From Cymbomonas tetramitiformis (lineage: Eukaryota > Chlorophyta > Pyramimonadophyceae > Pyramimonadales > Pyramimonadaceae), in the NCBI GenBank assembly GCA_001247695.2, contig LGRX02035512.1:1-64000 (forward strand): a DNA stretch of 64,000 nucleotides, in the 5' to 3' direction. Below, one piece after another: positions 17,829-53,734 of this stretch. How positions within the stretch are numbered: position 1 is the first letter of the stretch; every line of letters begins with the position of its first letter. The position numbers were made by a program, and so were the translations under genes. The notes under the pieces are model-generated. The model made no database searches. It was not told the origin of the DNA and worked only from the letters and a program-made list of their open reading frames with translations.

Positions 17829-18700
17829 GCTGCCGTGTCTCGTTGGGAGTGGTGGCCACTATCTGGGTGCCCCACTGCTGTGCGCTGAGCCTGGCGCTGA
17901 TGGTTGGCGTGAACGGGTGCTGTGGCATTGTGTCCGCGCCTGGGCATCCGGCTTGCACGTACTCCTCGAGGGTGTTCTGCTGTCGGCTGACGTAGTGGGC
18001 TAGCTTAGTGATGTGCTGGGGTGTCCATGGCCCCGGCATGAGTGTGGCTGTTGCGGTGCGCACACCTTCGTATGTGGCGAGGTTCCAGTGTTCTGGGGTT
18101 GCGTTGTCCACATGAGTGTTGGTGGTGTTGTTGTTGGTGTGGTGCGACCATGTGGCGCACATGGTGAGGTGCTCCTGCTGTGCGTTAGCCTGGCGGGCTG
18201 CGGCTTCGCGCTTCTGGACTTCGGAGGCCCCTTCAGGGAGCAGAAGCTGTTGGAGCTCAGCTAGCGTGAAGGTTTCGCGGTCTCCGTCGTCGTACATGAG
18301 GCGGAATGCGTATGGTCGTTCTGCGGCACCGAGCCATTCTACTGTTCCCTCGTAGGTGCTGCCTTCGATCACCTTCAGTGCGCGGCGCCCGTCGAGCTGC
18401 TTGCCTCGCTCCTCGTACGCGGTGAGGTACTCGGGTGTGAGGTCGTCGTCGGGCAGTTGGCCTAGGCATCGTGGGCAATACCAAAACTCTTCTTTGGGAA
18501 CTCGCGTGAGCTTTGGTTGCAGGCATGCTAGGTGATATCCCTGGTTGCAGTCGTCGCAGAGTAGCATACTGGCGGGTCTGGCCACGCTGTGGCACACTTG
18601 ACAGCGTGCGTCCTCGTTGTCGTCCAGGTTGAAGGTGATGGTGGGGTCGATGTCGGGGTAGTGGCATATGGCTATGTCTGTGCAGTGCTGCTTGCACGTG
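17829..18700 (-). CDS. PHD finger and Tudor-like segment following the M integrase
   Basis: After a frameshift from the integrase C-terminus (about 18,700-18,720) the frame encodes a full C4HC3 PHD finger: CQVC, then CDDC, H-x2-C, and YCPRC (about 18,470-18,610). Next comes a stretch (YEGTVEWLG, then FRLMYDDGDRE, then LAELQ) resembling the Tudor-like folds that often accompany PHD fingers. PHD fingers usually read histone H3 tails. Here the pair occupies the position of the chromodomain in the other elements, which suggests chromatin-targeted integration. The remaining 140 residues are Gln/Thr-rich and unrecognised. Confidence 0.7.
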
Positions 18701-21700
18701 CTGCCGCAGCGTCCCCTCACTCAACGTGACCTGTCCGTTCGTGTCGATGTTGGTGATTTGCAGAATGACAGGCCGTGCTCTGAGTTGGAGGCCGTGGCTG
18801 GTTGTGCGCTTCAGGAACACAAAGTCGTGTACTTTGAAGTTAAGCTGCTTTGGCTGGTACTTGCCTGATCGGACTTGGGCGTAGCGCTCTGTCTGGCGGT
18901 GCTGTGCGATCTGTAGGTTGCTGCCAGCCATGACCGCGGCGCGCTTGACAAACTCTGCGCGCATCCAGTATTCGGCGGCTAGCGCATCGGGGTTCTGCGC
19001 GGTGTCAAGCGGGGTACTAATGCGCTGTTTGATGGAAGGGGGCAGTGTGGGACGCTGTGCGTAGACGAGTTCGTAGGGTGACATGTTGGTGGACTCGTGC
19101 GGGGACGCGTTGTAGCCCAGCATGATCCAGGGCAGATAGTCGTACCATCGGTCTAGGGACCCAGCCTGCTCACATGCCTTTGTGAGCGCGGCTTTGGTCA
19201 CCTGGACAATGCGCTCACTCAGGCCGTTGGTCTGTGGGTGCCCTGGTGCCGTCGTGCGGTGGTCGATCATGTTGTCCTGGAGGAGTTTGGCGAACTCGGT
19301 TCCCCACTCTCCGCCGTTGTCGGTAAGGACTTCGGCGGGGCACCCAAACCGGGCGATGACGTGTAGCGCGAACGCTGCGGATGTTTCCTCGGGAGTTTTG
19401 GAATACAGCGGGATGAGGCAGACATACTTGGTGAAGTGCTCCACGACCACCATGACGTATTTGTGCTCTGACTTGGCCTTTCTGGGCATTTTGGCGAGAT
19501 CGGCCGAGAAGCGGTAGTACATGCCCTTGATTTCAAGGGGGTTCAGTGTGGGGTTGACTTTGTCGAAGTTGGCTTTGTAGCGTGCGCATGCTTCACACAT
19601 GCGGACTGCGTCGTCACACGTCTTGCGCATCTGTGGCCAGTAGAAAGCATCCTGCACCATTGCGCGTGTGCGCCGCTGCCCGAAGTGGCCGTTGCGCTCA
19701 TGCATGTGCTTCGCGATGTCGTTGCGTGCAGCAACTTCGGGGACTGGTCTCTTCTGGCCGTTGGGTAGCAGCCTGTATAGGACGTCGTTTTCGATGAGGT
19801 AGTGGCGTCCTCTGGTGGCGGCGGCGGCGTGTGCGTCGGGGTCCTCCAGGTGTCCACCGGCGAGCACGGTCAGCATGTCTGTGTCGGTGGTGGGTTCACT
19901 AGTGTCTTGTGAACTGATTGCGGCCACCAGTGAGCGTGCATTGGCGTTCGCGTGCGGGTTAGCTGCGTAGCCTTCCTCAAGAGGAGGTTCCCGGGGTTGC
20001 TTGTGGATGAAGTTTTGCAGACCCCCCCCCGCCTGTGGGTTCCGAGCTGCTACAGTGGTGTGGCTCGGTGGGGGCTGCGGTGCCACATGTGGTGGCCTGC
20101 GGTGTGCTTTCGTATCCCAGGCCCTGGGGTGGCGCCACGGGGGCTCGACTGGAGGTTGTGTCACCGCCAACTGTACCAGTGGGTCGTCATGCTCTCGTCC
20201 GTAATGCCTGGCGATCTCCTGTGCGCGAGATGTTGACAGTGAGAGGAGTGTCTGAAGGCTGTCGCGCAAGTGATCGGTGGCTTTCCAGCAGGTGTCGTGG
20301 GCTCCGTCTGCGTCGTACGTGCTGTGGTCATGAGGGTCCATGGACTCGGCGTGGGTCAGTGCGTATGATGCGTGGGTTGATGAGTCTGTGGAGGGGTGTT
20401 GGTTTGATCCTGTCTGAAATGTGTTGACCAGGTTCGTTACGGCGAGGAGTCTGGAGACTGCCCGTACGTCGAATGCTCTACCGATCATAGCCATGCGCTG
20501 CGCCTGGCTCACTCCTGGTGCGGCGGTGGTGTCGGTCTCGAAGCCCATGGCTCTTTCGCGCTCGTTCACTGTAGGTGCTGTCCACGTGTCTGTCGCAACG
20601 TCCAGTACCTCTCCTTGATTTCCGTCACGGAAGCGGTAGGAGTTCGGAAATGACATGATGGTGGGCCATGCCCTCATAGGTTCCCCCGGATGGTTGCATT
20701 TGAACTGGCCGGAGCTGAGGCCATTTCCTGCGGGGCGCTCTCGTCGTCCTGCATCGAGTATGTCTCCTACTGTGCGCGCCGGGTCTCTGGGCACCAGGTC
20801 AAGCACGTGTTGTGTGGCGTGTGTGGGAGCGAGGTTGTGCCAATAGTTGCGGAGTCGGCGGGCGCGTGCTCCAAGCTGTGCGGCGTCGCAGGTGACGGGG
20901 TTGCCAATCATGGCGCACATGAGGGGGTGCATGGTCTCTCTGACTTCTCGGCTGGCGAAGTTGTGCTGTGCTGCCACACACTCGATCATGTACATGAGTC
21001 TGGTGGGGGCGGCTTCTTGCAGTGTGCCAATTAGGTTCACCACGTCGTACAGGATTGCTGAGTGGCGGCCTTGCAGGCCTTGTAGCGATCCTGCAGCGGA
21101 GAGGTCTTGACACTCAGTGCCTGCCATGACCATGATAGGCATGCCTGCCTGGGCTATGGTCTGCAGCTCGTGAGGCGTCACGGCTTTGATGTCCTGGGAG
21201 ATGGTGCAGAAGGCGTTCGTGCAGGCGTGCTCGGGCAGCAGCTCTGGGAAGCGTAGCTGGAGTTGCTGCAGGCGATAGGCAGCCGTGGCGCGACTGACTG
21301 GGTCCTTGTCACAGTAAACGTATTTGTTCACTTTGGCGCCGGTCTTCAATAGTGCTTCGAGTCCGGCGCAGATGCCTCCGCACAGTTCCACGAGTAGCAG
21401 GCCTTTCGCACAGGCGTCTTGCATGGCGCCTCTGGGGATGGTGCTCGTGTTGATGCTGCAGAAGCGGCCTGCGTGCTTGGTGGCGTTCAGGTGGGGGAGC
21501 TCGGCGGCGGGAGCGGGCGACTCGGGCTGGAATGCTTCGCGTACCCATCGCGCCACGGCTGCCCACAGCCGTCGTGAGCGGCCCTCTTCGTGATCCTCTA
21601 GGTCTGTGTGATAGGACCAGGCTTCGCCGAGGTTTGCGGTTGCCAGGTCCGCAGCGGTGCAAGGGTCGTCGAGTCGGTGAGCTGCTCTTTGCTCCATTTG

Positions 21701-23493
21701 CAGTGTGGCCAGGGCGAGGCTGCCGTCGGGCTGTTCCACTATCGAGGGTGATGGGTAACGGGCGCAGAGGCAGGCAAAAGTAGTTGCTCCTGAAAAGGGG
21801 AGTGCGCGGTCGACGGGGTCCATGCTGGCGCCTGTGGGGTCGAGGTCAGTTTCGCGTGGGTATCGTGAGAGCGCGTCAGCGTTCTGATGTGCTGCTCCAC
21901 TGCGGTGCTCCACATCGTAGTCGAACTCCTGTAGCGAGACTTGCCAGCGGATGTGCATTCCCGTCAGTGTGTTGGAGTTCTTGAGCCAGGTGAGGGGTTG
22001 GTGGTCCGTGATGATGGTGAAGTGCACCCCGTGTAGGTAATGCCGGAATGATCTTACACCGTACACTACAGCTAGCGCTTCACCGTAGAAGCTGCTGTAA
22101 CGTCTCTCGGAGCTGGTCAGCGTGCGGCTGGTCGCTGCGACGATTACCTCGTGGCCCTCCTCCGTGCGCTGTCCCAGGATTGCTGACACTCCCATGCCTG
22201 ACCAGTCTGTCATCAGGTATAGCGGCCGCGTGGGGTCGTAGGCGTGGATCACGGCGCCAGGCTCGGTGAGGCGGAGTTTGAGCGCGGATAGGGCGTCGTC
22301 GTGTTCTTTGCCCCATACTTTGGCGACGTTTATGGCGTCACCGTTGTCGTCTTTGCGTAGCAGGGCGTTGAGTGGGTAGGCCAGCGTGGAGTAGTCGAGC
22401 TTGCCGACTCGTGCCGCCATAACTCTGTAGAAGTTCATGAAACCAAGCACTGCTCGGACTCCTTTGACGTCTTTAGTAGTGGGCAACGACTTTATTGCGG
22501 CAACCTTGGCGCTGTGAGGCTCCATGCGTCCTGGCCTGAGCAGGAAGCCCAGGAACTCCACCCCGACGGCGGCGAAGACACTCTTGCCAGGGTGCCCTCG
22601 TAGCCCTGCGGCCTTGAGGCGCTGGAGGACTTCTTGCACGTCGGTGATGTGTTGGGCTGCGGTCGGGCTTGTGATTGAGATGTCGTCACAGTATACCTTC
22701 ACACATTTCAGTCCCTGCAATTCGTGCTCCAGGACGCGTCCGAATTTCGCTGTGCTGTTCGTGCTACCGAAGGGCATTCGGGTGTAGACGTACTGCTCAG
22801 GGGCGGCCCCCTCCCTGGCCCACCAGAAGCATGTCTTGTTCATGGCGTCCTCGGTGAGGGGTATTTGGTGAAATCCTTGGCGCAGGTCGAGCTTGGTGAT
22901 GTACTGGTCTTTGCCCATGTCGTGAAAAAGGTCCTCGGGGAGTCGTGGCGGCGTGCGGTCTCGCTTGGACAGGAGGACAGCTCATTCACTCCTCGGAGGT
23001 CTAGCGCGACGCGCTTGTCTGTCCAGGTGCCATCCAGCGCCTTTTTCATGGCGACCACCACGTTGCATGTGTTCTTGCAGTAGTGTGGGGCCTTGGTTAT
23101 GATGCCCGCGGCCAGCAGCTTGTTGAAGTGTTCGTCGATGAGCTCCCGCTCTGCGGGCGAGTACCGTCTGGGCTTCTGAAAGCTGGACTTGGTTTCGTCG
23201 AGGAATGGGATTTCGAAGGGTCCGACTGCGCCCGTGTAACCTGGCAGATCGGTGGCGGTGGTGCTCATGAAGTCCTTCTCCTCGCGCAGCATGGCCAAGA
23301 AGGCCTCCCACTCGTCATCTGTCCAGGAACCTTCCCCTTGGGAGCCTTCTCGTGGACCCATTATGAGGCCGAGCTCCTCGTTGAGTACGTGGCTGGCCTC
23401 TACGTCATCTTCGCGTCCCAGTGGAATAGCGGTGTCCAACTCACTCAGGGTTGATTGAGGTTTGGGTGTTGAAGGACTTGATGGCGTAGTCAT
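18701..23493 (-). pseudogene. pol: M Pol: RT, RNase H, DNMT3-like C5-methyltransferase, integrase
   Basis: The RT begins at about 23,250 and includes KRVALDLRGVNEL, KLDLRQGFHQIPL, MPFGSTNS and the catalytic VYCDD (about 22,690). RNase H shows TDWSG, YGEAL and TDHQPL. A C5-methyltransferase resembling DNMT3 (about 21,400-20,430) follows: ELCGGICAG (motif I), AGTECQDLSAAG (catalytic Cys, but Glu replaces the usual Pro), MIECV (for ENV), QLGARARRLRNYW (as DNMT3 AAHRARYFWGN), and ERERAMGF...MIGRAFDV (motifs IX-X). Integrase has an HHCC finger (about 19,570-19,700) and D, D, E in SADLAK, TDNGGEW and LSERIV. An 8-nt duplication near 22,975 shifts the frame within the RT, so this copy is inactive. 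Confidence 0.85.
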
Positions 23494-30915: not shown

Positions 30916-31322
30916 TGTGCCAGGAGGTATTTATAGATCCTGCATGACATGATGACGAACCGATTCGAATGTACATTAGGCGGGAATATACAGACGAATC
31001 GAATATCGATGTCTGCCGAAGCAACGATAAAAGGGAAGCCAACGTCTGTTGGCTTAGCCAGTTTACAGTTTGATACAGTCCTAACTTCGTTCTAACACAA
31101 CAGTCGATAATCGTACATTTGCCGATGTATACATTTTCATGCAATGCTTATTCCACAACGTTATGCTCCTAATCATCTTAGACACCATTTCATCACTCTC
31201 GTAATCTGATCGTCGTAACGTATCGTCATCAGTGTCCACCCGGATAAGCTAATACGTCACTTGTACATTAATAGTTTCCGATATGCATCCCGTAGCATAT
31301 GCCTTGTACCGTGCCCGGTGCA
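30916..31322 (+). repeat. P 5' LTR (407 bp)
   Basis: TGTGCCAGG...CCCGGTGCA. Identical by eye to 53,328-53,734. Confidence 0.95.
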
Positions 31323-34259: not shown

Positions 34260-34536
34260 CAACCCGCAACCTCCCAGCGATTCATCTCCTCCCAGCAATC
34301 AGTCACCACCCGGAGATCCATCCGATGATCCTGATAAGCCACCCGACTATCCGAGTGGGGGATCTACATGGACATCTGTCCGAGTGATAGTGGTTACCGT
34401 AGGCGGTGACACCTTGTGGGTGCCCGGTTCGCAACCTCCATTGGGGTATACACTTCCCGAGTTATCTTCCCCACACAACACCCATCAGACTGCCATGCGA
34501 GTCATCGACAGGGTAGGGTTAAGTCCCGGCATCTAT
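34260..34536 (+). CDS. gag: P Gag, 5' segment (split by T)
   Basis: An open frame (already open from 34,084) with SPPSNQSPPGD and a PPDY motif. It ends at the T insertion. When T (34,537-43,543) and one CTAT copy are removed, …LSPGIY runs straight into LDSGALAF… of the downstream Gag frame. No stop lies at the joint, so both pieces were one protein. Confidence 0.7.
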
Positions 34537-35130
34537 AAGCGGTCGCAAAAAGTTAAATGTCACAAGTATGGTCACATGCATAATGCAAATATTTCATGTT
34601 TTGACTTTCGCCGCACCTTGCCGCGACTATTCTAAGGTTCACCGCGCATTTGGTTTTTGGAAAAAATTTTCTGGAGCTCGCAATTGAGAAAAAACTGCTG
34701 TTTTGGGCATGTTTTGGTGGTTTTATAGTGCGGGGGGTATATTGCGGGATGAAATAAGCTAGTTTTGAAGTTCGCCGCACCTTGCCGCGACAATTCTAAG
34801 GTTCACCGCGTTTTTGGATCATAGAAAAAATCTTTTCCAAGCTTGTAATTGCGAAAAAAACGTTATTTTGGCCCTTTTTCGCCCATTTTGAGTGCGCGTG
34901 AGTGTGTTGGGTGAGTTGGGCGATGTAATAAGGGAGTTTAGAAGTTCGCCGCACCTTGCCGCGACAATTCTAAGATTCACCGCGTTTTTGGATTATGGAA
35001 AACATCTTTTTCCAGCTTGGAATTGCGAAAAAATCGTTCTTTCGGCCCTTTTCCGCCCGTTTTGAGTGCGCGCGAGTGTGTGGGTTGACTTGGGGGAAGT
35101 AATATGCGAGTTTTGAAGTTATTTAGCAGA
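34537..35130 (+). repeat. Left TIR of T
   Basis: Inverted relative to about 43,085-43,543. It contains three spaced 18-bp GCCGCACCTTGCCGCGAC motifs about 165-175 bp apart, each followed by a TCTAAG(G/A)TTCACCGCG block. These are likely transposase binding sites. Confidence 0.85.
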
Positions 35131-35391
35131 GTGTTTTAAGTCTATTTGTGAATATCTTGAATATTACGTGCTGCAACAAGCTGTGCAATGCCAATCGAAC
35201 TTAAAAATAAGGAATCATATGTGTAATAATGCAGCAATCTAGAAACCATATGTCTAATGCGTGCAACAGAAAGACGACGCAATGGAAAACAATGAAGGCA
35301 ACTAAAAACATCAAAGTATAAGTAAACAGCAGTCAAAACAAAGCAAAGCATATTAATGGTGATATATCTGCATTTTTAAATTTCGGTACTA

Positions 35392-35859
35392 CTAACGCCT
35401 CCACTGCCACTGGGCAAACTCCTCCAGACTCAGGTTGCGAGGTGCTGCGTGTCCCGGAGTCTGCCCATATCCCCCAAAAGCAGCACTTAACATCCTTGCT
35501 TGTTGCAATGACATCGTGACCTGGGGCTCTGCCTGCAGCTGAGGCGCTACCAAGGCCCCTGCATGCATCGGCAGGCTGGGCATAAATTGCCCCGCGTTGC
35601 TGAAATGCCCCCCCGCCACGGCGCAGTTTCCAAGGAGCGGCACAGGCTCGAGGGGGGTGCTCGCAGCCGCGGGTGCGGAAGGAATGGCTGCGGGGGGCAC
35701 TTCCGCAGCAGTGCGCGCCTTCAGCTGACCCTCCAACTCCTTGATCTGTAGCTCCACCTGCAGATCAGCTAGGCGTTGCATGAGTTGGGCGTTGGCTTGC
35801 GGTTGGTCTTGCTGCTGCTCCGGCCGATGAGGCTGCTGAGCTTGCTGCTCCTGCTGATG

Positions 35860-35907
<48 letters not shown>

Positions 35908-38900
35908 AAGAGGCTGCTGCTCCAGAGTCTGTTGCTGCAGAGGCTGATGCTGGTGCGGCGGTGGCAGCTGCTGTGGCTGCTGCTGTGGCTGCTGCTGCTG
36001 AGGCTGATGCTGCTGCGGAGGCGGCTGCTGCTGACGTTGCTGCTGCTGCGGAGGCGGCTGCTGCTCTGGCTGCTGCTGCTGCTCCACATAAATCTGGGAG
36101 GCAGGCTGCATTTCTTCATCTGACCACAAGTCCAGAGTTGCCAGTGTCGACAGTGCCTCATCTCCCATGTCGATGTTCGAGTTTGCTGCCGGCTCCAACG
36201 ACTGCGCCCCTGGCTCTGTCCTAGCCGCAGCCACCGCCATGCTCGTTGTCCTCCCGCGCTTAGATCCCCTAGACCCCGGCGGGGGCTCAGAAATGGTCGT
36301 CCTTGGCCGCTTGGGAGGCTTCGTAGAATTTCCCTTCCTCGCCCCCTTTCCCTTGCTAGCAGCTCCCCCCGCCGCCGGCTGCGATGCTATCCGCGGGGGG
36401 CGTTTTGGTGGACATCTCGAAGCAGGCTTGAACACTGCCTTTGAGGCATTCCTGGCTACAGCCCCACCCGCTGCAACCTTACCAGCCTTCTTCGTGGGTG
36501 CTGCTCCCCCAGCTGCTGCCCCTCCAGCTGCTGTTCTCCCCGTAGCTCCCCCCCCCGTTCCTGCCGTGTTCTGAGCAATCGCTGGGAGGTCATCGTAGTG
36601 CACAGGGGTGAGTTCACCTTCATACATCCACGTGTCTTCTTTCCGCTTGTGATGGTTGAAGTGGCGGACGGGTCTCCATTTCCACCTTAAGACCAACTCC
36701 TTGAAGGACTCCACTGCCTCCAACAGCTTGACGTCAATGCTGCTCCTTGCCTCCACCTTCTCGGCTTGTAACAGCAGAGCAGCAGAAGCGTTGAGGTTGC
36801 TGTGGCGAAAACACACCGTCCTCCGGCCGCCGCCGCGTATCGAAGCCGAGAATGGCACCGCCGGATTCTCCTCCAACAGCCAGGGGCCATACACACAGAC
36901 GCCCAGTGCATTCTGGGCTGTCTTTCCCCTGGCCGGCGCGAAGGCAATCCAGAAAAGATCGAGGTGCTTCTGATGCACCACAACCCTCCCGAAAGCCATA
37001 TCACCCCTCAGGGTGTTGCGCAGCTTCAGGCTGTCCTGCAACGTGTTCCCAAGCGCCAAACAGTCCAATGAGGGGCTAGCTGTCACGAATTGCAACTCGG
37101 CTTTGAGAGCCCGCATCGCAAAGCTCGGAAGTGGACGTTGTGATGAGGGGAGGAGATCAGTGGTGTCCACCGCAATGAAGTCCTTGTCCGGACCATACTT
37201 CCGGAACACGGGGAACGTGGTGTTCTCTGGCAGGATCACGCCCTTCTTGTCCACGTAAAAATGCGCTGACCATCGAGGCACCCCGGAGTAGTCGAACTCC
37301 ACCGCCGAGTGCACCAGCGCCCCCGAAAAGATCACAACGCTCTTCGCATCGAGGTGCAACGTGAGCGAAGTCAGGGTCTCCTTGTCAAGCATTTCCCTGG
37401 GCACCAAGTGGGATCCAGGGTATACCCGAAACTGATACTGGTCGGAGATGATCAGCATCACCCCAACCTCCCCCGCGTCGTAATGGTTGTCCTGACGAGC
37501 CGCACCACCGTGTGTCATCAGCAACGTGCGCCCCATCTTCCCCGACCGCATCACCAACTCCACCTCAGTCCCAGAGGTAAGTGTGGATATGACGTCCGCC
37601 CCAACCCCCTCCAACCGCTTCATGAACCCCGTGCCATCCTCCACGTCCACGATACACCTCTTGCTATCTGGAACGGACGTGGTGTGCACCCCATCAGTTT
37701 TGAACGACATGAAATTCTGCCGGACGTTCTTCACGAGGTACCCCTCGTGAATTTGTTTCGCGAGGACTTCGACAGGCGACGGGTCCTCCAGCCTGCACAC
37801 GCAATAGCCGTCCTCCTCAATCTGCTTGCGCCAGTTAGAAGGCCACACCAGCCCAGCCTTCTCCACTGCTTCTGGCTGCCCCTGCTCCTGCGCCTCCCCA
37901 GTCTGCACCCCCGGCTGCTGCTGCTGGGATCCACCCGCGGATTCGCCGACCCCCTGCCCCGCCTGCTTCTCCTGCTGCCCTCCCCAGCCTGCTCCGCCGC
38001 CGCCTCCTTCTCCGCTGCCGGGCTGCGCTGCTGGGATCCACCTGCAGCTCGCCAGCAGACCCCCCCCCGCCTGCTTCTCCTGCTGCCCCTCCCCAGCCTG
38101 CTCCGCCGCCGCCTCCTTCTCCGCGCCGGCTGCTGCTGGCTGATCCACCCGCGGATTCGCCGCCAGACCCGCCCCGCACTTCTCCCCGCTGCCCCTCCCC
38201 AGCTGCTCCGCCGCCGCCTCCTTCTCCGCCCGGCTGTGCTGCGGGATCCACCACAGACTCGCCAGAGACCCCTGCCCCGCCTGCTTCTCCTGCTGCCCCT
38301 CCCCAGCCTGCTCCGCCGCCGCCTCCTTCTCCGCTGCCGGCTGCTGCTGCTGGGATCCACCCGCAGACTCGCCGCGACCCCTGCCCCGCCTGCTTCTCCT
38401 GCTGCCCCTCCCCAGCCTGCACCGCCGCCCCCTGTTGCTCCTCCGATACCACAGGGGCTTCACCAGAAGACTCCTCAAGCGCGGGGAAGTCTAGGGGCTG
38501 TATCGACATGGGGCCGGGCTGGAGGCCCAATGCAGCCGGCCATCGCAGGGGAAGGCCTGCTCTGCCACTTTTACCGCAAAAATTGCGACCGCATGTGGTC
38601 GCGTCCTCAACCTCACCAGGCCTGCATATCCCATGGAAGGAGCGATGGCAGGCAGTGCAGCCGTGCCCTGGAGTACGATCGTCGTCCTTGCCCAACCCGC
38701 AAAATAGACACCAGTCCTGGGCGTATTTCCCGCAACGCCCGCACTCTCCAGGGTAGGAGTCCCCAGCAGCGCAAACCCCATGGTAGTGCCCATCGCACAT
38801 CGAACATGGCTGTGGTAGCACCCCCACTCGAGCAGCTTCGCCGTGTGGGCAGTTGGGCACCACGCAGAACTTGCGCGTTGGAAAAAGATCTTTTTTCATT

Positions 38901-39174
38901 AGTCGTCTTTTTGGTTCTTCTGTCCCGCTGAAGGCTTCTGACATCGCAAGCCCCCGCTTTCCTGCCATGTCTTCCCGATCTAAAACAAAAGTACCCAAAG
39001 TACTTCTTTTAGCTCGTCCAGGTGCTCTTGGCCAATAAATATACTGCTCGCGCAAGGCAGGCACGCGAAGCCGTCGTGATGGTCTGTTATTTCCCACAAC
39101 TCACAATCTTCACCAAAGGAGATGTATACTCTTGCTTCGCGTGTGCAATAATCACACGGCTGCCTGGCAGGCAT
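35392..39174 (-). CDS. T accessory gene: PHD-like zinc fingers, repeats, 2OG-Fe(II)-dioxygenase-like domain, polyQ tail
   Basis: Exon 1 is 39,174-39,045; a 65-nt GT-AG intron (39,044-38,980) leads into exon 2. The N-terminus has CDYC...CLPC. At about 38,590-38,860 two Cys/His clusters (CSMC...H-x3-C...CGRC; CLFC...CTAC...H-x2-C...C) resemble PHD fingers. A Gln/Gly/Glu-rich repeat array (about 37,880-38,450) is open in two frames, and the frame must change within it (intron or frameshift). At about 37,260-37,840 lies a double-stranded-beta-helix pattern: HYD as the HxD iron ligands, VYPGSHLV, distal His in VHSAVEFDY, and the Arg of RWSAHFYV. The C-terminus is Lys/Pro-rich, then polyGln (35,866-35,907). 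Oxidation of modified bases, TET/JBP-like, is an attractive inference; a PhyH-like or protein substrate is possible. Confidence 0.65.
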
Positions 39175-39662
39175 TTTGGGAGGTGATGTTTTTTAGTGTC
39201 GTGCATGTTTTCAATCACATGCCTTTCACCGCACGTAGGATCAACACCCCACTGTGACTGGGACGATCGTGCGTGCGGTGAAGTGGTTCCTCAGTAACGA
39301 CAGAATCTGGGATATAAGTCGATGGGCATTTCACCGCACGCAGGATCAAAACACCACTGTGACTGGGACGATCGTGCGTGCGGTGAAGTGGTTCCTCAAT
39401 AAGGACAGAATCTGGTAAAAAGTCGATGGACATTTCACCGCACGCACGATCGAAACACCACTGTGACTGGGACGATCGTGCGTGCGGTAAAGTGGGTGCT
39501 CGCAAGAAAACATTTTAGCAACATGCTATGCACCCATATTTTTAAACTTAAACGCGTTGTTGCTTTAATAATTCACAAGTCGATAGTTGTATATTGTGCC
39601 GTTATGCCAGGTTAATAGCATGGGATTCACCGCTTGTGAGCGGTATATATCGTGCGAGAAAT
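39175..39662. promoter_or_regulatory. Divergent promoter of T with palindromic tandem repeats
   Basis: Three units of about 110 bp (39,225-39,495) each hold TTCACCGCACG and, about 40 bp on, CGATCGTGCGTGCGGTGAA. These arms form an inverted repeat within each unit. Located between the two divergent genes, they may bind the transposase or a regulator. Confidence 0.7.
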
Positions 39663-42600
39663 ATGGCTTCTCTGGGGTTCCTTGTGGATATGCTGCCATG
39701 GCTACACGACCTGAGTGCAGCAGCGCGCGATTTTCCGTTGAGTTTGCCAGTTGCTGTAGGGAACCAGGATCGAGGAACAAACCTAGTCCGAGAAATAGGC
39801 GAGTTTGTTGCTCATTGGAACCACCTCGCTCCTTCAAAAGATGTTACGCCAGTAGCGACTGCTGTCGCGAATGCGGGCACGCCATCTTCACCTGCTGTCC
39901 AGCGGCGTGCAGACGCTACGCCAGTCACCACAGATGGCGCACCTGCGCTCACCTCATCATCCCCTCCTGTCCAACAGCGCGTTGATGGTACCCCAGTTAC
40001 CACAGGTGGCGCGCATGCGACCACACCTTCTTCCACTGCTATTAAACGGCGTAAAAATGCAAAGAAAAGGAAAAGTGACGAAAGAGGGAGAAAGCGTTTG
40101 AGGGAGGAAAATGCTGAAGCGCCACGGTCAGAAGGAACCCAACCCGAAGCTAGCAATGCAGAAGATTCTGGAGGAGTGCCGCGGGGAAGCAAAACGTACT
40201 GGAACACGAAGTTGGCGACAGTTTTTTCAAAGGCCTCCAAGCTCATTCCAGGCGCGCTTGGGAACTATGTCGCTTCCTTGTCGTCGGAGGAGCAATGCGC
40301 GGTACGCGAAAAGATTTTGCGCAGGCCAGAGGACCGCGTTGGGAACATACTGGTCAGGAGCTTACGAGCGTCATTTCAGGCTGTCTCCACCAGCAGATGC
40401 AAAGAGATTCTCGACATTCGGATGGCAGGTGCAGCTATGGCGTTTGGGGGACCCGAGGAGAGCGTGGGCGAGATCGCCTCGGTTTTAGGCATACGATCAC
40501 CTGTTGTGAATACAGGGATGATTGGACACAGTAACTTGCTTGCTGGAGCTGGCTTCGGGATGGAACATAGGCGACGAAGCGGGCTACTGGTTGGCTTGGT
40601 GAGGACCAACATTAATCTGCCTAACCAGGTAGTGAGCGCGGAGATCGAGAAGAAAATCCGGGCTTTCTGGCTCAGTGATGGGATCACTCGAGTGTCCACG
40701 AGCAAACGGGATGTTCTTACGCTCCGGCATGCAGATGGGACAGTGGAGAAGGCTCCGAAGCAGTGGTTAGAAATGACGCAGCTTGAGGTGTATCGCAAGT
40801 TCATGAAGAAGGAACCTGGTTTGAAGATTGGGCTTAGGACGTTCGAGCAAAAGAAACCAAAGCAAGTCCGAAGACTCACTCGACATGACACAATTTCTTG
40901 TTGCTGCAGATACCATGAGGAGATGCGGCTGGCGGTTACTGGGTATCACAGGGCACACGAAGTACTGCACTCGAATTGTGATTGCGGGGACAGGGTTTGC
41001 TGCCCACTGGTGGGGGGGCAGCGGGCCGTGATGTCCAACCGCAAACCTACTCTTGCGTTTCCGGACAAAGTATGCGGACGTGTTGAGGTGGGTTGCTCTA
41101 CGTCCAGTTTTACAGCGGCCCAGATTTGTCCGAAGCCAACTCTGGATAACGGGGGGCCGGCTGAGTTCCACGATCTCGCCTGTCTAGATGGTTCGTGTGG
41201 GAACTGTTCGGGGCTGCAGAACATGACTTTGTGTGCCTCGGAGATTTCGCAGCAGCTGCCTTTGGTGGAGTGGAGCACGTATGAAAATGCGTTGCTTGGG
41301 CAGGACGCAAACGGGAAGAATAAGTATCGGGTGCAGTATGTTCAAAAAAGGACCCCTGTGGGGGAGCTAGTGGCAAAGCTGCAGGCCGTGCTCCTTGGGC
41401 ACGTTCCAGGGGACTCCGCGAACTGCACGTGCTCTGGCAGTTTTGCGCAGAAGACGGAGCAGGGAAGCTGGGAGTTGATGCAATTAGACGGCGTGGGGGG
41501 ACGGGCGTGTCCTTTTTTGAAGCCATATGCCTACCACTGCTTCATGGCTCAGCACTCAATGAAGATGTTTAACATGTGCAAAGCTAACTTGCCCTTGGGA
41601 CATGTTTGCCTTCTTTTTGACTACAGCGAGAACCATTCGCTGAACATCCCACGGGCTATCCAGTCGTTGCATTGGGTATGTAAACAAGCGACACTTCTGT
41701 GTTGTGTGCTATGGCGGCATGCAACTCTGGAGGTGGACGGCGTGGAGTCCACGGAGGCGAACCCTGTCATTGTGAAGGACCTCATCTACCTCATCAGCGA
41801 CGACATGCCACATAGTCACCGAGGAATTCAACATATGCGCAAGCTTATCGTGAGTGAGTATTTCGTGAAGAGAGGTATCCCGCTGCCAATATTCATCCAC
41901 GAGTGGGCTGATGGATGCGGGGGTCAAAACAAGTGCGCAACTGCCTTTGCGGACGTGGTGGAGAGCGGACGGACAACGGAGTGGGTCAGAGGGCTCGGCA
42001 TCCCGTGCCAGCGCAACTTTTTTGAAACATCGCACGCACGAGGCGAGCAAGACGCTATGGGAGTGGCAGTCAAGCATGAGGCGAGCCTGGCGGTGATGTC
42101 CACCACTGATAAGTGGCATGGGAGGATTCTAACCGCGAGAGACTTGTACGAGTTTTGCATGGAGAGGCTTCAATTCGCCAAGGACCAAGGCTCTAATCGG
42201 CGTTCCGCGTTTGGACAGCGTTTCTTTTTCCTGGTGGAAGGAGACGACGTGGATACCTCGGGGCCTGAGTTCGACACGGTGGACGGCACTTTGGCGTTGC
42301 ACTCCATCCGTGCGGGAGTGGGGTTGTTGGTGGGCCTGAAGCGGGAGCGCCAATGCTACTGCGAGTATTGCTATGAGCAATGCACGCGCGCGGAGCCGGA
42401 TTGTGAAGGGTGCCACTACGCGAGCCACGTGGACAGTTGGGTGCCCTTCACCCTGAAGGCCAAAACACAAGCGCAAGCCCGGCAAACAAGAATGGCGGCT
42501 GCAGAACTAGCACACGACACGGGCGTGCTAGTTGCGCGAGGTAATATTTTTGCCCGGCCTTCTGGGGGGGGTGAGTTGCACCCCTACTATTTGGTGAAGG

Positions 42601-42899
42601 CACTTAGTGGAGTGCAAGAGGTGCGGGACGAGGGCGGGTGGCGAGATGACTACTACACACCAAGCGGGAGTGGTGTGCTTGCTGCTTTTGGAGATCAAGT
42701 ACTCGAAGGCCGTTTCTTGGAATGGCTTGATGAAGGAACGTGCACCGAATACTACATAGATAGCGCAAAGAAGCGTTTGACATATTCCCACCATGTAGTG
42801 TGCGCGGAGGTGTCCGTGACCAAACGCAGAATTAAGGGCCAAGACATCTTCCGCGTATCAGATGAGGAGCACGAGCGTATCCTATCATTATTATATTAG
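39663..42899 (+). CDS. T transposase (DDE/D-like)
   Basis: 1,078 aa from ATG at 39,663. The N-terminus is basic and low-complexity. Cys-rich clusters (SCCCRYHE, CDCGDRVCC, CLDGSCGNC) lie at about residues 415-520, probably zinc-binding. The core has three conserved acidic blocks: LLFDYSENH (about residue 654), ADGCGGQNK (about 750) and NFFETSHARGEQDAMG (about 791). This D, D, D/E set with SEN, DG-x3-Q and SH-x2-G-x2-D recalls a large family of uncharacterised transposase-like proteins in cnidarians and insects, from memory. Its ORF is uninterrupted, so it may be functional. It is read divergently from the dioxygenase-like gene. Confidence 0.75.
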   Translation: MASLGFLVDMLPWLHDLSAAARDFPLSLPVAVGNQDRGTNLVREIGEFVAHWNHLAPSKDVTPVATAVANAGTPSSPAVQRRADATPVTTDGAPALTSSSPPVQQRVDGTPVTTGGAHATTPSSTAIKRRKNAKKRKSDERGRKRLREENAEAPRSEGTQPEASNAEDSGGVPRGSKTYWNTKLATVFSKASKLIPGALGNYVASLSSEEQCAVREKILRRPEDRVGNILVRSLRASFQAVSTSRCKEILDIRMAGAAMAFGGPEESVGEIASVLGIRSPVVNTGMIGHSNLLAGAGFGMEHRRRSGLLVGLVRTNINLPNQVVSAEIEKKIRAFWLSDGITRVSTSKRDVLTLRHADGTVEKAPKQWLEMTQLEVYRKFMKKEPGLKIGLRTFEQKKPKQVRRLTRHDTISCCCRYHEEMRLAVTGYHRAHEVLHSNCDCGDRVCCPLVGGQRAVMSNRKPTLAFPDKVCGRVEVGCSTSSFTAAQICPKPTLDNGGPAEFHDLACLDGSCGNCSGLQNMTLCASEISQQLPLVEWSTYENALLGQDANGKNKYRVQYVQKRTPVGELVAKLQAVLLGHVPGDSANCTCSGSFAQKTEQGSWELMQLDGVGGRACPFLKPYAYHCFMAQHSMKMFNMCKANLPLGHVCLLFDYSENHSLNIPRAIQSLHWVCKQATLLCCVLWRHATLEVDGVESTEANPVIVKDLIYLISDDMPHSHRGIQHMRKLIVSEYFVKRGIPLPIFIHEWADGCGGQNKCATAFADVVESGRTTEWVRGLGIPCQRNFFETSHARGEQDAMGVAVKHEASLAVMSTTDKWHGRILTARDLYEFCMERLQFAKDQGSNRRSAFGQRFFFLVEGDDVDTSGPEFDTVDGTLALHSIRAGVGLLVGLKRERQCYCEYCYEQCTRAEPDCEGCHYASHVDSWVPFTLKAKTQAQARQTRMAAAELAHDTGVLVARGNIFARPSGGGELHPYYLVKALSGVQEVRDEGGWRDDYYTPSGSGVLAAFGDQVLEGRFLEWLDEGTCTEYYIDSAKKRLTYSHHVVCAEVSVTKRRIKGQDIFRVSDEEHERILSLLY

Positions 42900-43543
42900 A
42901 ATTTGGACCGCCTTGTTTTATTGATAGTTTGTGCAAATGAAATGACATGAAATAATGCGGGCTTTAAAATTCATGTTTTGCAACCCACTTATCACCCCAC
43001 GGGCGCGTACGCACCAAAACCCTAAATAAACAGTTCTGAAACAGTCATTTTAACCCATTTCAACCTGAAAATTTTAATTTGCCAAAATTCAAATGCGCGG
43101 TGAAGCTTAGAATTGTCGCGGCAAGGTGCGGCGAACTTCTAAACTCCCTTATTACATCGCCCAACTCACCCAACACACTCACGCGCACTCAAAATGGGCG
43201 AAAAAGGGCCAAAATAACGATTTTTTCGCAATTACAAGCTTGGAAAAGATTTTTTCTATGATCCAAAAACGCGGCGAACCTTAGAATTGTCGCGGCAAGG
43301 TGCGGCGAACTTCAAAACTAGCTTATTTCATCCCGCAATATACCCCCCGCACTATAAAACCACCAAAACAGGCCCAAAACAGCAGTTTTTTCTCAATTGC
43401 GAGCTCCAGATTTTTTTTTTCAAAAACCAAATGCGCGGTGAACCTTAGAATAGTTGCGGCAAGGTGCGGCGAAAGTTTTTGAAACAAAAATCATTATTTA
43501 TCTTCCATTATGCATTTGCCGCACGAACTTTTTGCGACCGCTC
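42900..43543. repeat. Right TIR of T and short spacer
   Basis: About 43,085-43,543 is the inverted partner of the left TIR, with three GTCGCGGCAAGGTGCGGC motifs. 42,900-43,084 is AT-rich non-coding sequence, presumably the transposase 3' UTR. Confidence 0.85.
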
Positions 43544-43547
43544 CTAT

Positions 43548-47907: not shown

Positions 47908-48741
47908 CAGTGTGTAAGACACGGCGTGATTGGCCGGCCCGGGACCGGTCGAAATCTCCAAAACAGGGTGTGGGCCGCTCGTGGGCCGATCGATTTTTTG
48001 TCTGTGGGCCGATGCTTCTGAACGCACGGTTTGCGGGTTTCCAGCCAGATCGGCCTCGGGCCGGTGTGGGGCCGGTTAAAATCGTTGGATCGGGTGGATT
48101 TCTGAGTTGGAGCTCCAAAACCCCAAAAATTATATATTGAGCACTGCTGACGCATTGCCACCGACACGCAACGAACGAAGTTTGTACAGATTACGAGAGC
48201 GGTGATCTACGGCGACTGCAGACATACCGACCGGTATGCATAATTATGTACATCATGGAGGGACGAATTGCTCAAGTTGTTACGCTGTTGTTATTGCTTG
48301 CGTCTACGCAGTTTTTTCAAGTTTCGCAAGCGGTTCAGATACAAGTGCCAGCTTTTCAGTGCGAAGATGCGTGTGAAGGAAACGCGACAACCTCTGCCTG
48401 ATTCGGTTTTTGCAAAGTTGGTCATTCAATTAAGCAGATGTCTTATGTTTTAGATGACTCAAATAGTAGTGATTTTCGATTTTCGTGGCTAGAAGTATTC
48501 ATTAGCACATTTATTTTATGATTTGGTATTTTGTTTTCAGATTTCGATCAATTTTGTTTCATGTCATTCATTCAGGTTCAGGTCATTATCGGTTTAATAA
48601 AAAATATATGTAAATCAGCTTATGGCCCTGGGCCGGTGGCGGGCCGGTGATCATTTTGCCCCGGGCCGCTCGGGCCGCTAGCGGGCCGGTGCTATAAGCC
48701 ATGTGCGGGCCGGTGAGCAAAACCTGGTGTCTTACACACTG
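47908..48741. mobile_element. hAT-type MITE, copy 2 (834 bp) within P RT
   Basis: Ends CAGTGTGTAAGACAC and GTGTCTTACACACTG, flanked by an exact 8-bp duplication CGTATGCA (47,900-47,907 and 48,742-48,749). Deleting it rejoins the RT (…QRRM then QRALGHLPF…). GGGCCGG-rich subterminal blocks match the other two copies. The AT-rich middle has no convincing ORF. Confidence 0.95.
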
Positions 48742-51700
48742 CGTATGCAACGAGCACTGGGCCACTTGCCGTTCGTGAGGATCTTCATCGACGACGTGAT
48801 TATCTTCAGCAAAACCGTCGAGGAACACTACGCAAATGTGAAGCGCTTTCTGGAAACGTGTAAGGAGAAGGGAGTCTACCTTAAGGCCTCCAAGGCTCAG
48901 ATAGGACCGAAGGAAAGCCTGCGATTTCTTGGCCACACCCTCTCTTCCAAGGGTTGTCAGCCGCAGCATGACAAGGTGGCATCCATCAGGACCTGGCCTC
49001 AGTTGCAGTCGGTGACCCAGGTGCGTCAGTTCTTGGGACTGGCAGGGTATTATCGTCGGTTCGTACATCACTTCTCGGAGATCGCCAAGCCGCTGACGGC
49101 ACTCACGAAGACGGACGAGCCGTGGCAGTGGGGAGAGCAGCAGCAGTGGGCTTTTGACGAGCTCAAGGAGGCCCTATCTTCGGCACCGGTGTTGGCACTA
49201 CCTGATATAAAGAAGGCAGCCGATGGGTCAGCACCATTTCTGGTACAGGCGGACGCGAGCGGTGTAGCCTTGGGGGGTGTACTTATGCAGGACACGGGCG
49301 ACGGCATGCAGGTGATAGCCTACGACAGTCGGCAGTTCTCGGCGGCCGAGCAGAACTATCACACCGGAGAAAGGGAACTGTGTGCACTACATCATTGCAC
49401 CACAGTAACCTGGCGGCACTATCTCTGTTTTTCTGAGTTTCGACTGCAAGGCGATCACCGACCGCTGGAGTGGCTGATGTCTCCCGGGAGAGAGCTGAGC
49501 AGACGGCAGGCGAGGTGGTATATGGACCTGGTAGAGGTAGGAGTACCACGCATGGAGTACGTGAAGGGTGCATTATTGCTGGTACCCGATGCCCTTTCCC
49601 GCCGACCGGATTATGTGACCTTATCACCACGAGCAGGCTTGGTAGAGGCAGGGGTAGTAGATGGGAACACGGATCGGCCAGCGGGCTTGGTACTAAACGC
49701 GGCGGAGGCAGTTGGTGACTTTGGCGATGAGCCACCTGTGCCAGTGCCGGCATGGCTAGCAACGGTGGAAACCTGGGTTGACGGAGTCTTGACGCTGCAG
49801 ATGGCAGAACGGGCTCAGGACAGGGCGTCCCAGCATCGGAGCAAGGGTACCGAGGGAGCCATAGCCCCCATACAGCAGCAGCAGAAGTCATCACAGCAGC
49901 AGCAGGGTTTGAGGGTACGCCGCGAGGTGTTCGAGCGCTTGCAACGTCAGTTCGGTGAATTTGATGTCGATGCAAATTGTGAACGGGGGGGGGGCAATCG
50001 TTTGGCGGAACAGTACTGGACGGATTGTCTCAATGAGAAGTGGCGCGGAAAACATGTATGGTGCAGTCTATCCAGCTCAGGGGATCATCCCAGTGTGGAG
50101 GCAGTACTGCGCAAATATGTTGATGAGTGGCGTACGGACCCATCACCTACATCGGCGGTATTCCTGTTGCCGGATGTGCAGGCTCGGCTTCCGCAATGGC
50201 GCAGACTTTTTCGGATGACAGGCATGCGTCTAGTAGAGGTGATACCCACGACGGATGATAGTGGGGTGGCCAACCAGCTGTATGAGAACACCGGGGGGGT
50301 CCTGCAAAACCTATCCGGACCAATGTTGGTGGTATACGCACCGCCCTCTCGTCAACAGGTGCCCCGCAACCGCTACCCACGGGTCCTGCCACCAGTAATA
50401 CGGCAGGGAGAGGCGGCAAGGGTGCGGGATGCAGCGGAGCCGCCCACGGACTCCAAGTTTTTGGAGGCTCTGCACGACGAGTATGCGCGGGAAGGGCCAC
50501 TGCGGCAGCTGCGTGAACAAGTTTTGGCGGCACCACACCGGACCACCAAGGACTTCCGCGTCATTGGAGAGGTGCTTTGGAGGGTGGCGGCAGGGCGCTA
50601 CCAGCTGGTGCTGGGGGAGGATTCGCCACTGCGGGAGGTAATTTTCTGGGAAGCACACGACTCAGCGGCAGCAGGTCACACGGGGCGAGAAAAGACGCTT
50701 GAGCGGGTGCTGCGCAGGTTCTGGTGGGAAAACGCGGCGGAAGACGTTGCTGGGTGGGTCACTTCCTGCCCAACCTGTCAGGCGGTGCGACCACGGGCGG
50801 CGTTCCCGGATGGGTTGCTCAACCCGCACTCCATACCCCTCAGGAATTGGCAGGAGGTGAGAGTCGACTTCGTTACAGGTCTACCCCTTACACAACAGGG
50901 GAATGATGCCTTCATCGCCTTCACCTGCAAACTGAGCAAAATGGTGCACGTGGTGCCCATGAACTTCGGCGACAGCTCGGCGCAGACAGTGGCACGAATC
51001 TACTTCGACGTGATCTGGAGACAGCATGGGGCCCCCATGAAGATCGTGTGCGACCGGGACCCGAGATTTCAGGATGCATTCTGGAAGGAACTCATGCGGC
51101 TAATGGGAATGCGGGTGGCTTCTACAACTCCCTACAATCCGCGATCGGATGGGCAGGCGGAGCACACCAACCGAGTAAATGAAGACATGTTACGTTCTTT
51201 CGTGGGGGCGAATCCAGGGGATTGGGACCTGTACGCGACCAACGTGGAGTTCGCCATTAATGACTCCCGTAGTGATGTCACTGGTTTCACCCCGTTTGAG
51301 CTATGTTACGGTGTGTCGCCGATGTCTCAGTTGGATATGTTCCTGGAGGCCGCAGCACACCCCAGCTCCGCGCGACGGAAAGGGGGGGTAGGTACGGCCC
51401 ATGAGATGGCCTCTCGATTTTCGTCGCAGTTGCGGGACGCACGGAGCAGGCTGGAGCTGGCACAGCAACGGCAGCGGGAGCAGTTCGACAAACGCCATAC
51501 AGATCGAGAGTACGCAGTAGGTGATTTGGTGTGGGTCGACGCCCGACATCTGACGGAGAAGCTGATGGACCGACAGCTGTGTCGCAAGCTGGCGAAACGG
51601 TGGCATGGACCCCTGGCGGTAACAGAGCGGTTCCACAGTGATCTGCAGGCGGCACTACCAGAGGCAGATCGCGGCGCACCAGTGGCATACAGGTTGGCAC

Positions 51701-52605
51701 TTCCCGCACATTGGCGGGTGCATGACGTGTTTGCACAGCATCGTCTTAAGCCCTTCGTGCATGGTGCCAAGGCATTTGCATCCAGGCAACAGGTGCACAT
51801 ACCCGACCCTGTGGTGGTAGATGGTCAGGCAGAGGCTCATGTAGAGAAGATTCTGGCTCACCGCCGGGTACGGCGGGTACGAGGGAAGGCAGTAGAGGAA
51901 TGGAAGGTGCGCTGGACAGGGTATTCGGCGGCGCATGATCAGTGGCGAACACGGGACAAGATGGACAGGGGTGCAGAGAATCAACAGCTGAAGGAGTTCG
52001 AGACGCGAAGGCTGAGACAGCAGGCTGAGGTAATGGATGCGGCTAGACACGGGATTCAGAGGCGCGAGCGCAGAGACCCTACACCGGCTGAGTTGCAGGC
52101 ATTAAAAGGCGTTACTCTAGCACAGCTGATGGAACACCCTTGTGACGCCCCGGAACCGGAGACCCCGGAAATGTGCTGTCTGCCATGGGAACGCTTGGAG
52201 CTAATGGAGGATGGAAGCCTAGCGATAGTCACGCAGTTGCAGGATGACAAGGAGGGGCGACCTGTGAGGATGTTGGTTCTGTTCAACGGCACTGGATCAG
52301 TGGAGGGAGGATTTACACAATGCTTCCCGGAGGCGTCAGTAGTGACTCTAGATCTTGATCCACGGTGGCAACCTACACACCTGACTGCTATAGAGGACTG
52401 GGATCCCACACAGTATCCACCAGGGTTTTTCGACGTCATATGGGCCAGCCCTCCATGCACCCAGTACAGTCAGGCGCGAACCACAGGAGGACCGCCGGAT
52501 TTGGCGGCTAGCTGCCGATCGGTGTGTACAGCGAACGCTCGACATCATAGAGTACCTGAAGCCGGAACACTGGTTCCTGGAAAACCCCGCAGGACGCTAC
52601 CCTAA
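48742..52605 (+). pseudogene. pol: P Pol, second part: RT catalytic motif to C5-methyltransferase, ended by a frameshift
   Basis: Starts with the rest of the RT (catalytic FIDDV, about 48,786). RNase H (QADASG, GEREL, GDHRPL, about 49,250-49,470) follows. A Dam-like region (FDVDANCERGG) has a catalytic site decayed to WCSLSS where P2 has WCNPPF (about 49,960-50,340). Integrase has its HHCC finger (about 50,655-50,795) and DDE core (DFVTG, CDRDPRF, DGQAEH), then a chromodomain (WKVRWTGYSAAHDQW, about 51,900). The C5-methyltransferase shows LFNGTGSVE and SPPCTQYS. A one-base shift near 52,513 then ends the frame; the other frame continues DRCVQRTLDIIEYLKP. Apart from MITE and frameshift the polyprotein is intact. 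Confidence 0.9.
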
Positions 52606-53327: not shown

Positions 53328-53734
53328 TGTGCCAGGAGGTATTTATAGATCCTGCATGACATGATGACGAACCGATTCGAATGTACATTAGGCGGGAATA
53401 TACAGACGAATCGAATATCGATGTCTGCCGAAGCAACGATAAAAGGGAAGCCAACGTCTGTTGGCTTAGCCAGTTTACAGTTTGATACAGTCCTAACTTC
53501 GTTCTAACACAACAGTCGATAATCGTACATTTGCCGATGTATACATTTTCATGCAATGCTTATTCCACAACGTTATGCTCCTAATCATCTTAGACACCAT
53601 TTCATCACTCTCGTAATCTGATCGTCGTAACGTATCGTCATCAGTGTCCACCCGGATAAGCTAATACGTCACTTGTACATTAATAGTTTCCGATATGCAT
53701 CCCGTAGCATATGCCTTGTACCGTGCCCGGTGCA
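53328..53734 (+). repeat. P 3' LTR (407 bp)
   Basis: No difference from the 5' LTR was seen by eye. Followed by TCGGC (53,735-53,739). Confidence 0.95.

Follow-up and report, generated by a model that had tools for sequence, protein, structure and literature searches.

The locus described here raises the question of whether a DNA transposon of a green alga may carry an enzyme that could erase the marks by which hosts silence mobile DNA. We analysed 64,000 nucleotides of Cymbomonas tetramitiformis DNA (assembly GCA_001247695.2, contig LGRX02035512.1, positions 1 to 64,000 of the forward strand; hereafter, the window) containing an element, here named T, in which a transposase gene faces away from a partner gene that encodes Cys/His-rich fingers and a domain resembling 2-oxoglutarate (2OG)/Fe(II) dioxygenases. 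An earlier, sequence-only reading had proposed that T may represent an independent pairing, outside the KDZ transposons that TET/JBP-type enzymes accompany in fungi, of a transposon with a base- or histone-oxidising enzyme. Searches of the genome (851,713,466 bases, split over 25,745 contigs; a length of 914.3 Mb, 68% of it interspersed repeats, has been published for an assembly of nanopore and Illumina reads, PMC10675990) revealed a real, repeated and conserved pairing of transposon and dioxygenase in this green alga. The consistent pairing with a probable 2OG/Fe(II) dioxygenase, apparently outside KDZ, therefore stands from the earlier proposal, while a TET/JBP type or a base-oxidising activity is not established.

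The ends of T are exact, CTAT-AAGCGGTCGC...GCGACCGCTC-CTAT, and place the terminal inverted repeats (TIRs) and the CTAT duplication of the sequence-only reading at the boundaries given in Table 1. The TIRs pair over approximately 490 nt with small indels, including 429 ungapped nucleotides at 94% identity. The motif TTCACCG follows every sub-repeat of the left TIR (at 34638, 34802 and 34976), and its complement CGGTGAA is found twice in the right one (at 43098 and 43436). Contig C23306 holds a second copy of T, which matches it at 98.97% identity across 9,035 nt, ends at the same termini and is flanked on both sides by CACA. A more distant element on contig C17475 (about 59134-69816; termini AGGTGTCGCAAAAACTC), whose transposase is 76% identical to that of T, is flanked by CTGG; this duplication was recognised by visual inspection of the flanking sequence and lies one base further in than the boundary set automatically. 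All three elements with resolved ends thus have 4-bp duplications and, because the other insertions have CACA and CTGG, the duplication is not a chance feature of the T site. A fourth element, on contig C1255, showed TIR-like repeats and was excluded from this count. With its TIRs, a duplication seen at independent insertions and an open transposase frame, T is a cut-and-paste DNA transposon. A polinton-like virus was also considered; only two genes were read between the termini, with no profile search for capsid or polymerase as such. Polinton-like viruses of Cymbomonas can carry DDE transposases (PMC10675990).

Table 1. Features of transposon T, numbered from the first nucleotide of the window
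Feature	Position	Strand	Description
Target-site duplication, left copy	34533..34536		CTAT
Transposon T	34537..43543		9,007 bp; two divergent genes between inverted termini
Left TIR	34537..35023	+	three sub-repeats, GCCGCACCTTGCCGCGAC at 34610, 34774, 34948
Partner gene	35392..38968	-	fingers, repeat array, 2OG dioxygenase-like domain, second conserved domain, Gln/Pro-rich tail
Second conserved domain	36580..37128	-	LRNxLRGDMAFGRVVxHxK...W...VYGPW...RRxVxFR
2OG/Fe(II) dioxygenase-like domain	37129..37863	-	H127xD129 (37477-37485), P149GSH152, H185 (37309-37311), R197 (37273-37275); numbering from 37863
Repeat array	37881..38441 (about)	-	units of ~105-109 nt, ~35-aa repeats (ESAGGSQQQQPAAEKEAAAEQAGEGQQEKQAGQGS)
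N-terminal Cys/His-rich double finger	38501..38968	-	CVVPxCPH..CxxCxGxxHxxC..ECxRCG..CLFC..GHxCxxCxRxFHGxC
Three palindromes	39225..39282, 39330..39387, 39434..39491		~105-nt tandem repeat between the divergent genes; arms TTCACCG...GATC
Putative DDE transposase	39663..42899	+	1,078 aa from ATG 39663; Cys-rich segments; candidate acidic residues D653 (41619), D750 (41910), E795/D797 (42045/42051)
Right TIR	43057..43543	-	three sub-repeats at 43453, 43289, 43115
Target-site duplication, right copy	43544..43547		CTAT

The pairing was evaluated by locating both genes across the genome. At least 43 long transposase copies are present (scored out of 2,843 first-look candidates), and the matched part is free of stops in 39 of them. 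Dioxygenase searches with three query sets, in which 98 of 1,027, 100 of 1,043 and 100 of 1,050 candidates were scored, gave 161 listed places; in the first search, which alone linked 18 transposase copies, 92 of the 98 matches were stop-free. Taking the searches together, a listed dioxygenase shares its contig with at least 22 of the 43 transposase copies, that of T among them. The two genes are divergent in all 22 pairs, their matches being separated by 1.8-4.2 kb, and the pairs belong to four families; copies of the transposon therefore do not consistently lack the gene. Fingers and dioxygenase lie together, divergent beside the transposase, in the elements L021, L022 and L023, where the two regions have 98-99%, 50-54% and 40-44% identity to T, respectively. 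Twenty transposase loci, that of T among them, were inspected over the 1.5 kb upstream, and 18 contain at least part of the finger region there; in the two others, the contig ends about 0.5 kb upstream (L008) or the finger region is absent (L014).

The divergent partner, its repeat array and the HxD...H...R pattern could all be located in T as the sequence-only reading had described them. The Cys/His spacing of the N-terminal double finger, previously called PHD-like, is kept among three aligned families, and the region has no Pfam match, PHD included, so that the label holds for the spacing and not for the family. The second conserved domain has no Pfam match above threshold (Rubella_E2 at E 0.016), and the tail is Gln/Pro-rich, with a coiled coil by eye. 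In T, the gene consists of two open frames, a finger frame and a dioxygenase frame, which overlap in different reading frames within the array, a GC-rich tandem repeat open in more than one frame; the frame change noted earlier is thus real and sited in the array. It is best read as an array indel, real or assembly-derived, because the relative L022 has the partner in a single open frame of 1,502 aa, from the fingers through the tail, and because T and its 99% identical copy L021 change frame at different repeat units. L023 is also frame-changed around its repeats. A spliced intron in the array was considered as well, but the single open frame of L022 led us to prefer indels.

The partner domain probably belongs to the 2OG/Fe(II) dioxygenase superfamily, mainly because of its conserved motif. 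We aligned 22 rows from 21 distinct places, a sample of the 161 listed, in which the HxD...H facial triad plus the R of the superfamily is present: all 21 places retain HxD as well as the G and H of PGSH, and 20 of them retain the distal His and Arg, which L026 alone lacks because its frame is shifted at that point. The order HxD, distal H, R is that of PhyH and Tet_JBP and is common to most 2OG families, so it is not specific to TET/JBP. The 56 residues that separate HxD from the distal His in T are, by informal comparison, nearer to the spacing in JBP, NgTet and AlkB than to that in PhyH. Among 24,736 Pfam models, the sole dioxygenase families to surface were PhyH and Tet_JBP, both aligning at the distal-His end of the model and both below cut-off. 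PhyH (PF05721) appeared at E 0.015-0.079 in family B and 0.12-0.15 in family D, with a best score of 16.0 bits against a curated threshold of 22 (L022 core); Tet_JBP (PF12851) appeared at E 0.03-0.05 in family C, with a best score of 14.0 bits against a threshold of 34.9 (L038 core). In the PDB, a profile of seven copies aligned its PGSH...VH segment with chain 8zyb (DhiD; E 0.0073), and DhiD returned at E 0.092 from a four-row profile and from L023 alone. The profile comparison proposed by the sequence-only reading thus yielded only sub-threshold PhyH and Tet_JBP matches, and the domain does not fall clearly into a metabolic PhyH family; membership of TET/JBP, or action on bases, is not established.

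In the protein database, where approximately 7,990 candidates were scored in each search, the dioxygenase has a single relative, P0015 of Cymbomonas tetramitiformis, to which the four-row profile search added none. P0015 is 90.5% identical to L026 over 591 columns, repeat-array gaps included, and has the same odd frame-shifted stretch after HxD. L026 itself (C17997:13186-14475) is a 73%-identical dioxygenase copy that has lost the distal His and Arg by frame shifts, and its neighbouring frame still reads PRWSAHFYVD.

Selection was estimated as the ratio of nonsynonymous to synonymous substitution rates (dN/dS) by the Nei-Gojobori method. Comparisons between families gave dN/dS of 0.10-0.23 in the transposase and 0.25-0.41 in the dioxygenase region, rough values because dS exceeds 1 in most pairs. 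Both genes appear to have been under constraint during the divergence of the families. Among near-identical dioxygenase copies, which differ by few changes, the ratio scatters around 1 (0.56-3.0 where defined; 0.19 and 0 in two family D pairs), as expected after insertion, and the value of 0.63 for T and L026 is inflated by the frame-shifted stretch. For one element pair, L022 and T, dS is 0.62 in the transposase and 1.69 in the dioxygenase, a difference that may reflect exchange of genes or locally different rates. Exchange of modules among families was looked for in L046, an element of the same family as that on C1255, and none was seen there.

The 1,078-aa transposase frame is open, as the sequence-only reading had stated; a DDE mechanism and a catalytic role of the candidate acidic residues are suggested by their conservation. 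No Pfam family matches the transposase above threshold. Pfam holds models for KDZ transposases and for the associated Cys cluster, and none of them matched, either with the whole protein at E up to 1 or with three pieces from 40800 on at E up to 10, in agreement with the absence of KDZ motifs reported before. Sola transposons make 4-bp target-site duplications, a length common to other superfamilies too; the duplication of T fits Sola and is not specific to it. In Zisupton, the duplication is 8 bp long (PMC12730594), and an 8-bp duplication of the KDZ type was found in none of the three resolved elements. Transposons of the T type are thus apparently outside KDZ. Relatives of the transposase in the protein database number 14, and all seven that carry an organism name are from Cymbomonas tetramitiformis; searches of viral contigs and GTDB genome contigs yielded no sequence relatives. 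A Foldseek search with the low-confidence transposase model gave no match at E<=0.001, a result that we did not use. In family C (L006, L007, L009-L020 and L046), the transposase of L046 has 14 counterparts at 99.1-99.9% identity, which suggests a recent burst.

The region shared by the two promoters contains three palindromes, for example TTCACCGCACGCACGATC and GATCGTGCGTGCGGTGAA separated by 22 nt. We compared one element per family, with three units in T (family A), four in family B and four in family C. In each of these 11 units, the two arms complement each other at 16-19 of 18-20 positions, the arm core of family C being CCGGCCGCGAG on both sides. Between families, arms match at 13 of 18 positions for A and C or B and C, whereas A and B are alike (17 of 18). 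The outer TTCACC is mostly kept and the inner GATC fully, with at least two GATC in each of the 11 units, and the TTCACCG core is common to the palindromes and the terminal sub-repeats. Arms that changed together between families are what one would expect of sites bound by an element-encoded dimeric protein. The partner or the transposase, if either, would be the binder.

Based on these results, we favour, at what we consider even chances, a reading in which T is an autonomous cut-and-paste transposon that encodes a DDE-type transposase together with a chromatin- or DNA-directed 2OG/Fe(II) dioxygenase, the latter acting as a self-directed eraser of silencing marks. The partner would be brought to the element by its own fingers or by the transposase, with the promoter palindromes and the terminal sub-repeats that contain TTCACCG as docking sites. 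There it would oxidatively strip a silencing mark, either a methylated base or a histone methyl-lysine, and removal of the mark would keep the promoter and the ends open for expression and excision. Dioxygenase catalysis, substrate and anti-silencing role are all putative in this scheme. A more specific proposal, which we hold as tentative and rather doubtful, is that the partner represents a new 2OG dioxygenase family, neither TET/JBP nor metabolic PhyH, which would have evolved in green algae alongside an otherwise unclassified transposase. It would target the promoter palindromes of its own element, each with GATC at both inner arm ends, and remove from them a mark on a base or a histone, for example methylated adenine in GATC.

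Several observations weigh against an eraser function or limit its support. At the level of linkage, 21 of the 43 transposase copies are without a listed dioxygenase; in seven of these the contig extends less than 3 kb upstream, the dioxygenase of the others is possibly among the unscored candidates, and some may be real losses. At the level of the domain, no family assignment passes its cut-off, and the domain of T itself has no PhyH or Tet_JBP match in Pfam. Unrelated Pfam families appear at similar E-values (DUF3297 at 0.042-0.061, p25-alpha at 0.063), the NCBIfam model dut reaches E 0.013 with the domain of T, and in the PDB a spurious-looking PCNA chain outranks DhiD (E 0.0027 vs 0.0073); PDB searches with T, with a two-row profile and with L022 returned no recognisable dioxygenase. 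The AlphaFold2 models have a mean predicted local distance difference test (pLDDT) of 31 for the dioxygenase (two-row alignment) and 46 for the transposase (15-row alignment), and the high dS values mentioned above blur the estimates of constraint. A search of the genome for canonical TET/JBP genes found none, a result that says little, as the control genomes were equally silent. The copies show no clear decay signature of 5-methylcytosine (5mC) either: C-to-T changes affect 26 of 1,252 CG, 29 of 1,142 CHG and 49 of 3,143 CHH sites (CG vs CHH, p=0.25; CHG vs CHH, p=0.04), and the observed/expected ratio of CpG is 0.84 in T vs 0.95 in the window. Such decay had been suggestive in a smaller set and was not upheld in the larger one. 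Because the substitutions between copies lack this signature, the range of substrates is left wide, and 5mC, another base or a histone could be the target. A metabolic or protein-hydroxylase substrate is also possible.

This last possibility leads to the view, which we judge unlikely, of the partner as a PhyH-like cargo enzyme that modifies a metabolite or a protein side chain and has no role in the chromatin of the element. The PGSH motif, which is associated with PhyH, and the matches to PhyH (E 0.015) and DhiD could point there; many copies in four families have, however, kept the dioxygenase together with the transposase, and in L022 it shares one frame with the Cys/His fingers and the tail, whose last residues are alike by eye between families. 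Moreover, family C members match Tet_JBP instead, and a captured metabolic gene should have host relatives, while the sole relative found in the protein database is the Cymbomonas protein described above. We consider it similarly improbable that the partner is an accessory DNA-binding factor of transposition, in which the dioxygenase fold would be vestigial or structural and binding to palindromes and sub-repeats would be what matters. The divergent layout, the palindromes between the genes and the TTCACCG core in the termini would suit such a factor, as would the loss of the distal H and R in L026, but the retention of HxD, H and R in 20 of 21 places goes beyond structural need. That the motif is a chance resemblance within some other fold, as the lack of any above-threshold dioxygenase match in Pfam, NCBIfam or the PDB, the matches of unrelated families at similar strength and the poor model might suggest, is very improbable given that the H, D, distal H and R columns stand in the right order with PGSH between them across 22 aligned rows, and that the two 2OG families surfacing among all Pfam models both do so at the distal-His end.

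Enzymes that may write marks are present in the same genome. C5-methyltransferase (PF00145) matches number 124 (123 of 6,837 candidates scored): nine span nearly the whole model, four more cover over half of it, and most others are short pieces, many of them in large open frames that probably belong to retroelements. In the window, three Gypsy-type polyproteins contain methyltransferase-like matches: the one at 5875-9945 (+) has a Dam domain (E 6.5e-11) and a C5 DNA_methylase match below cut-off (E 0.0022), the one at 48703-52602 (+) a weak Dam match (E 0.0077) and the one at 18260-22918 (-) a weak C5 match (E 0.0081). Capture of DNA methyltransferases by retrotransposons has been described in dinoflagellates and charophytes (PMC5890265). 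An N6_N4_Mtase domain (E 1.6e-11) lies in a 251-aa frame at 4518-5270 (+), and at 17821-18720 (-) a PHD finger (E 2.3e-11), accompanied by a Tudor-like match below threshold, overlaps the end of a Gypsy polyprotein frame. Two direct repeats of 407 nt, 100% identical and 22 kb apart (30916-31322 and 53328-53734), have Gypsy gag/pol frames between them, and T appears to be nested in a young Gypsy element. Together, the methyltransferase-like domains of Gypsy and the partner of T would place writers and a candidate eraser in one mobilome.

If the eraser reading is true, transposons beyond fungi have independently gained oxidative erasers, and what had seemed a speciality of fungal TET/JBP elements would be a recurrent strategy. 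Many near-identical copies with defined promoter palindromes are available in one genome, and they could lead to a dioxygenase whose nucleic-acid or histone substrate is new. Among titles and abstract openings on Cymbomonas transposons, algal transposon dioxygenases and Sola accessory genes, subscription papers being mostly outside this scope, we found no description of the element, and the word 'dioxygenase' does not occur in the Cymbomonas genome paper (PMC10675990).

Known systems provide several points of comparison. One is an orchid Ty3/Gypsy element with an AlkB gene (PMC9289625), which like T carries a 2OG/Fe(II) dioxygenase with HxD...H; unlike T, it is a retrotransposon, and its enzyme is a clear AlkBH5 homologue, active in vitro as a demethylase of N6-methyladenosine in RNA. 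Sola1-1_Ec32 of Ectocarpus (PMC12477816) is, like T, a large algal transposon with an opposite-strand accessory gene joining a DNA-binding-type domain to a predicted DNA-modifying enzyme; it carries a ParB-like domain and a DNA methyltransferase, that is, a writer, whereas T carries a dioxygenase-like enzyme of eraser type. To the established families PhyH (PF05721) and Tet_JBP (PF12851), the partner family shows a weak profile likeness in its distal half, below cut-offs. Finally, TET/JBP genes have been reported in fungal transposons of eleven lineages, with escape from silencing as the proposed role (Kojima 2025, PMC12730594). The carriers include Dileera, Kyakuja, Zisupton, hAT, Harbinger, IS3EU, EnSpm, ESTA, Plavaka and Helitron, one fungal group being tied to TET/JBP through structure only (PMC12730594). 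The main text of that paper makes no mention of Sola or chlorophytes and names Chlamydomonas twice, for CMD1 as a reference structure and for the activity of CMD1. T shares with these fungal transposons a dioxygenase gene that adjoins the transposase and is kept across families, but it differs in its green algal host, in an enzyme not placed in TET/JBP and in a transposase without a Pfam match. In conclusion, the pairing in T is best read as a variation on the fungal TET/JBP-transposon theme, probably in a new host lineage.

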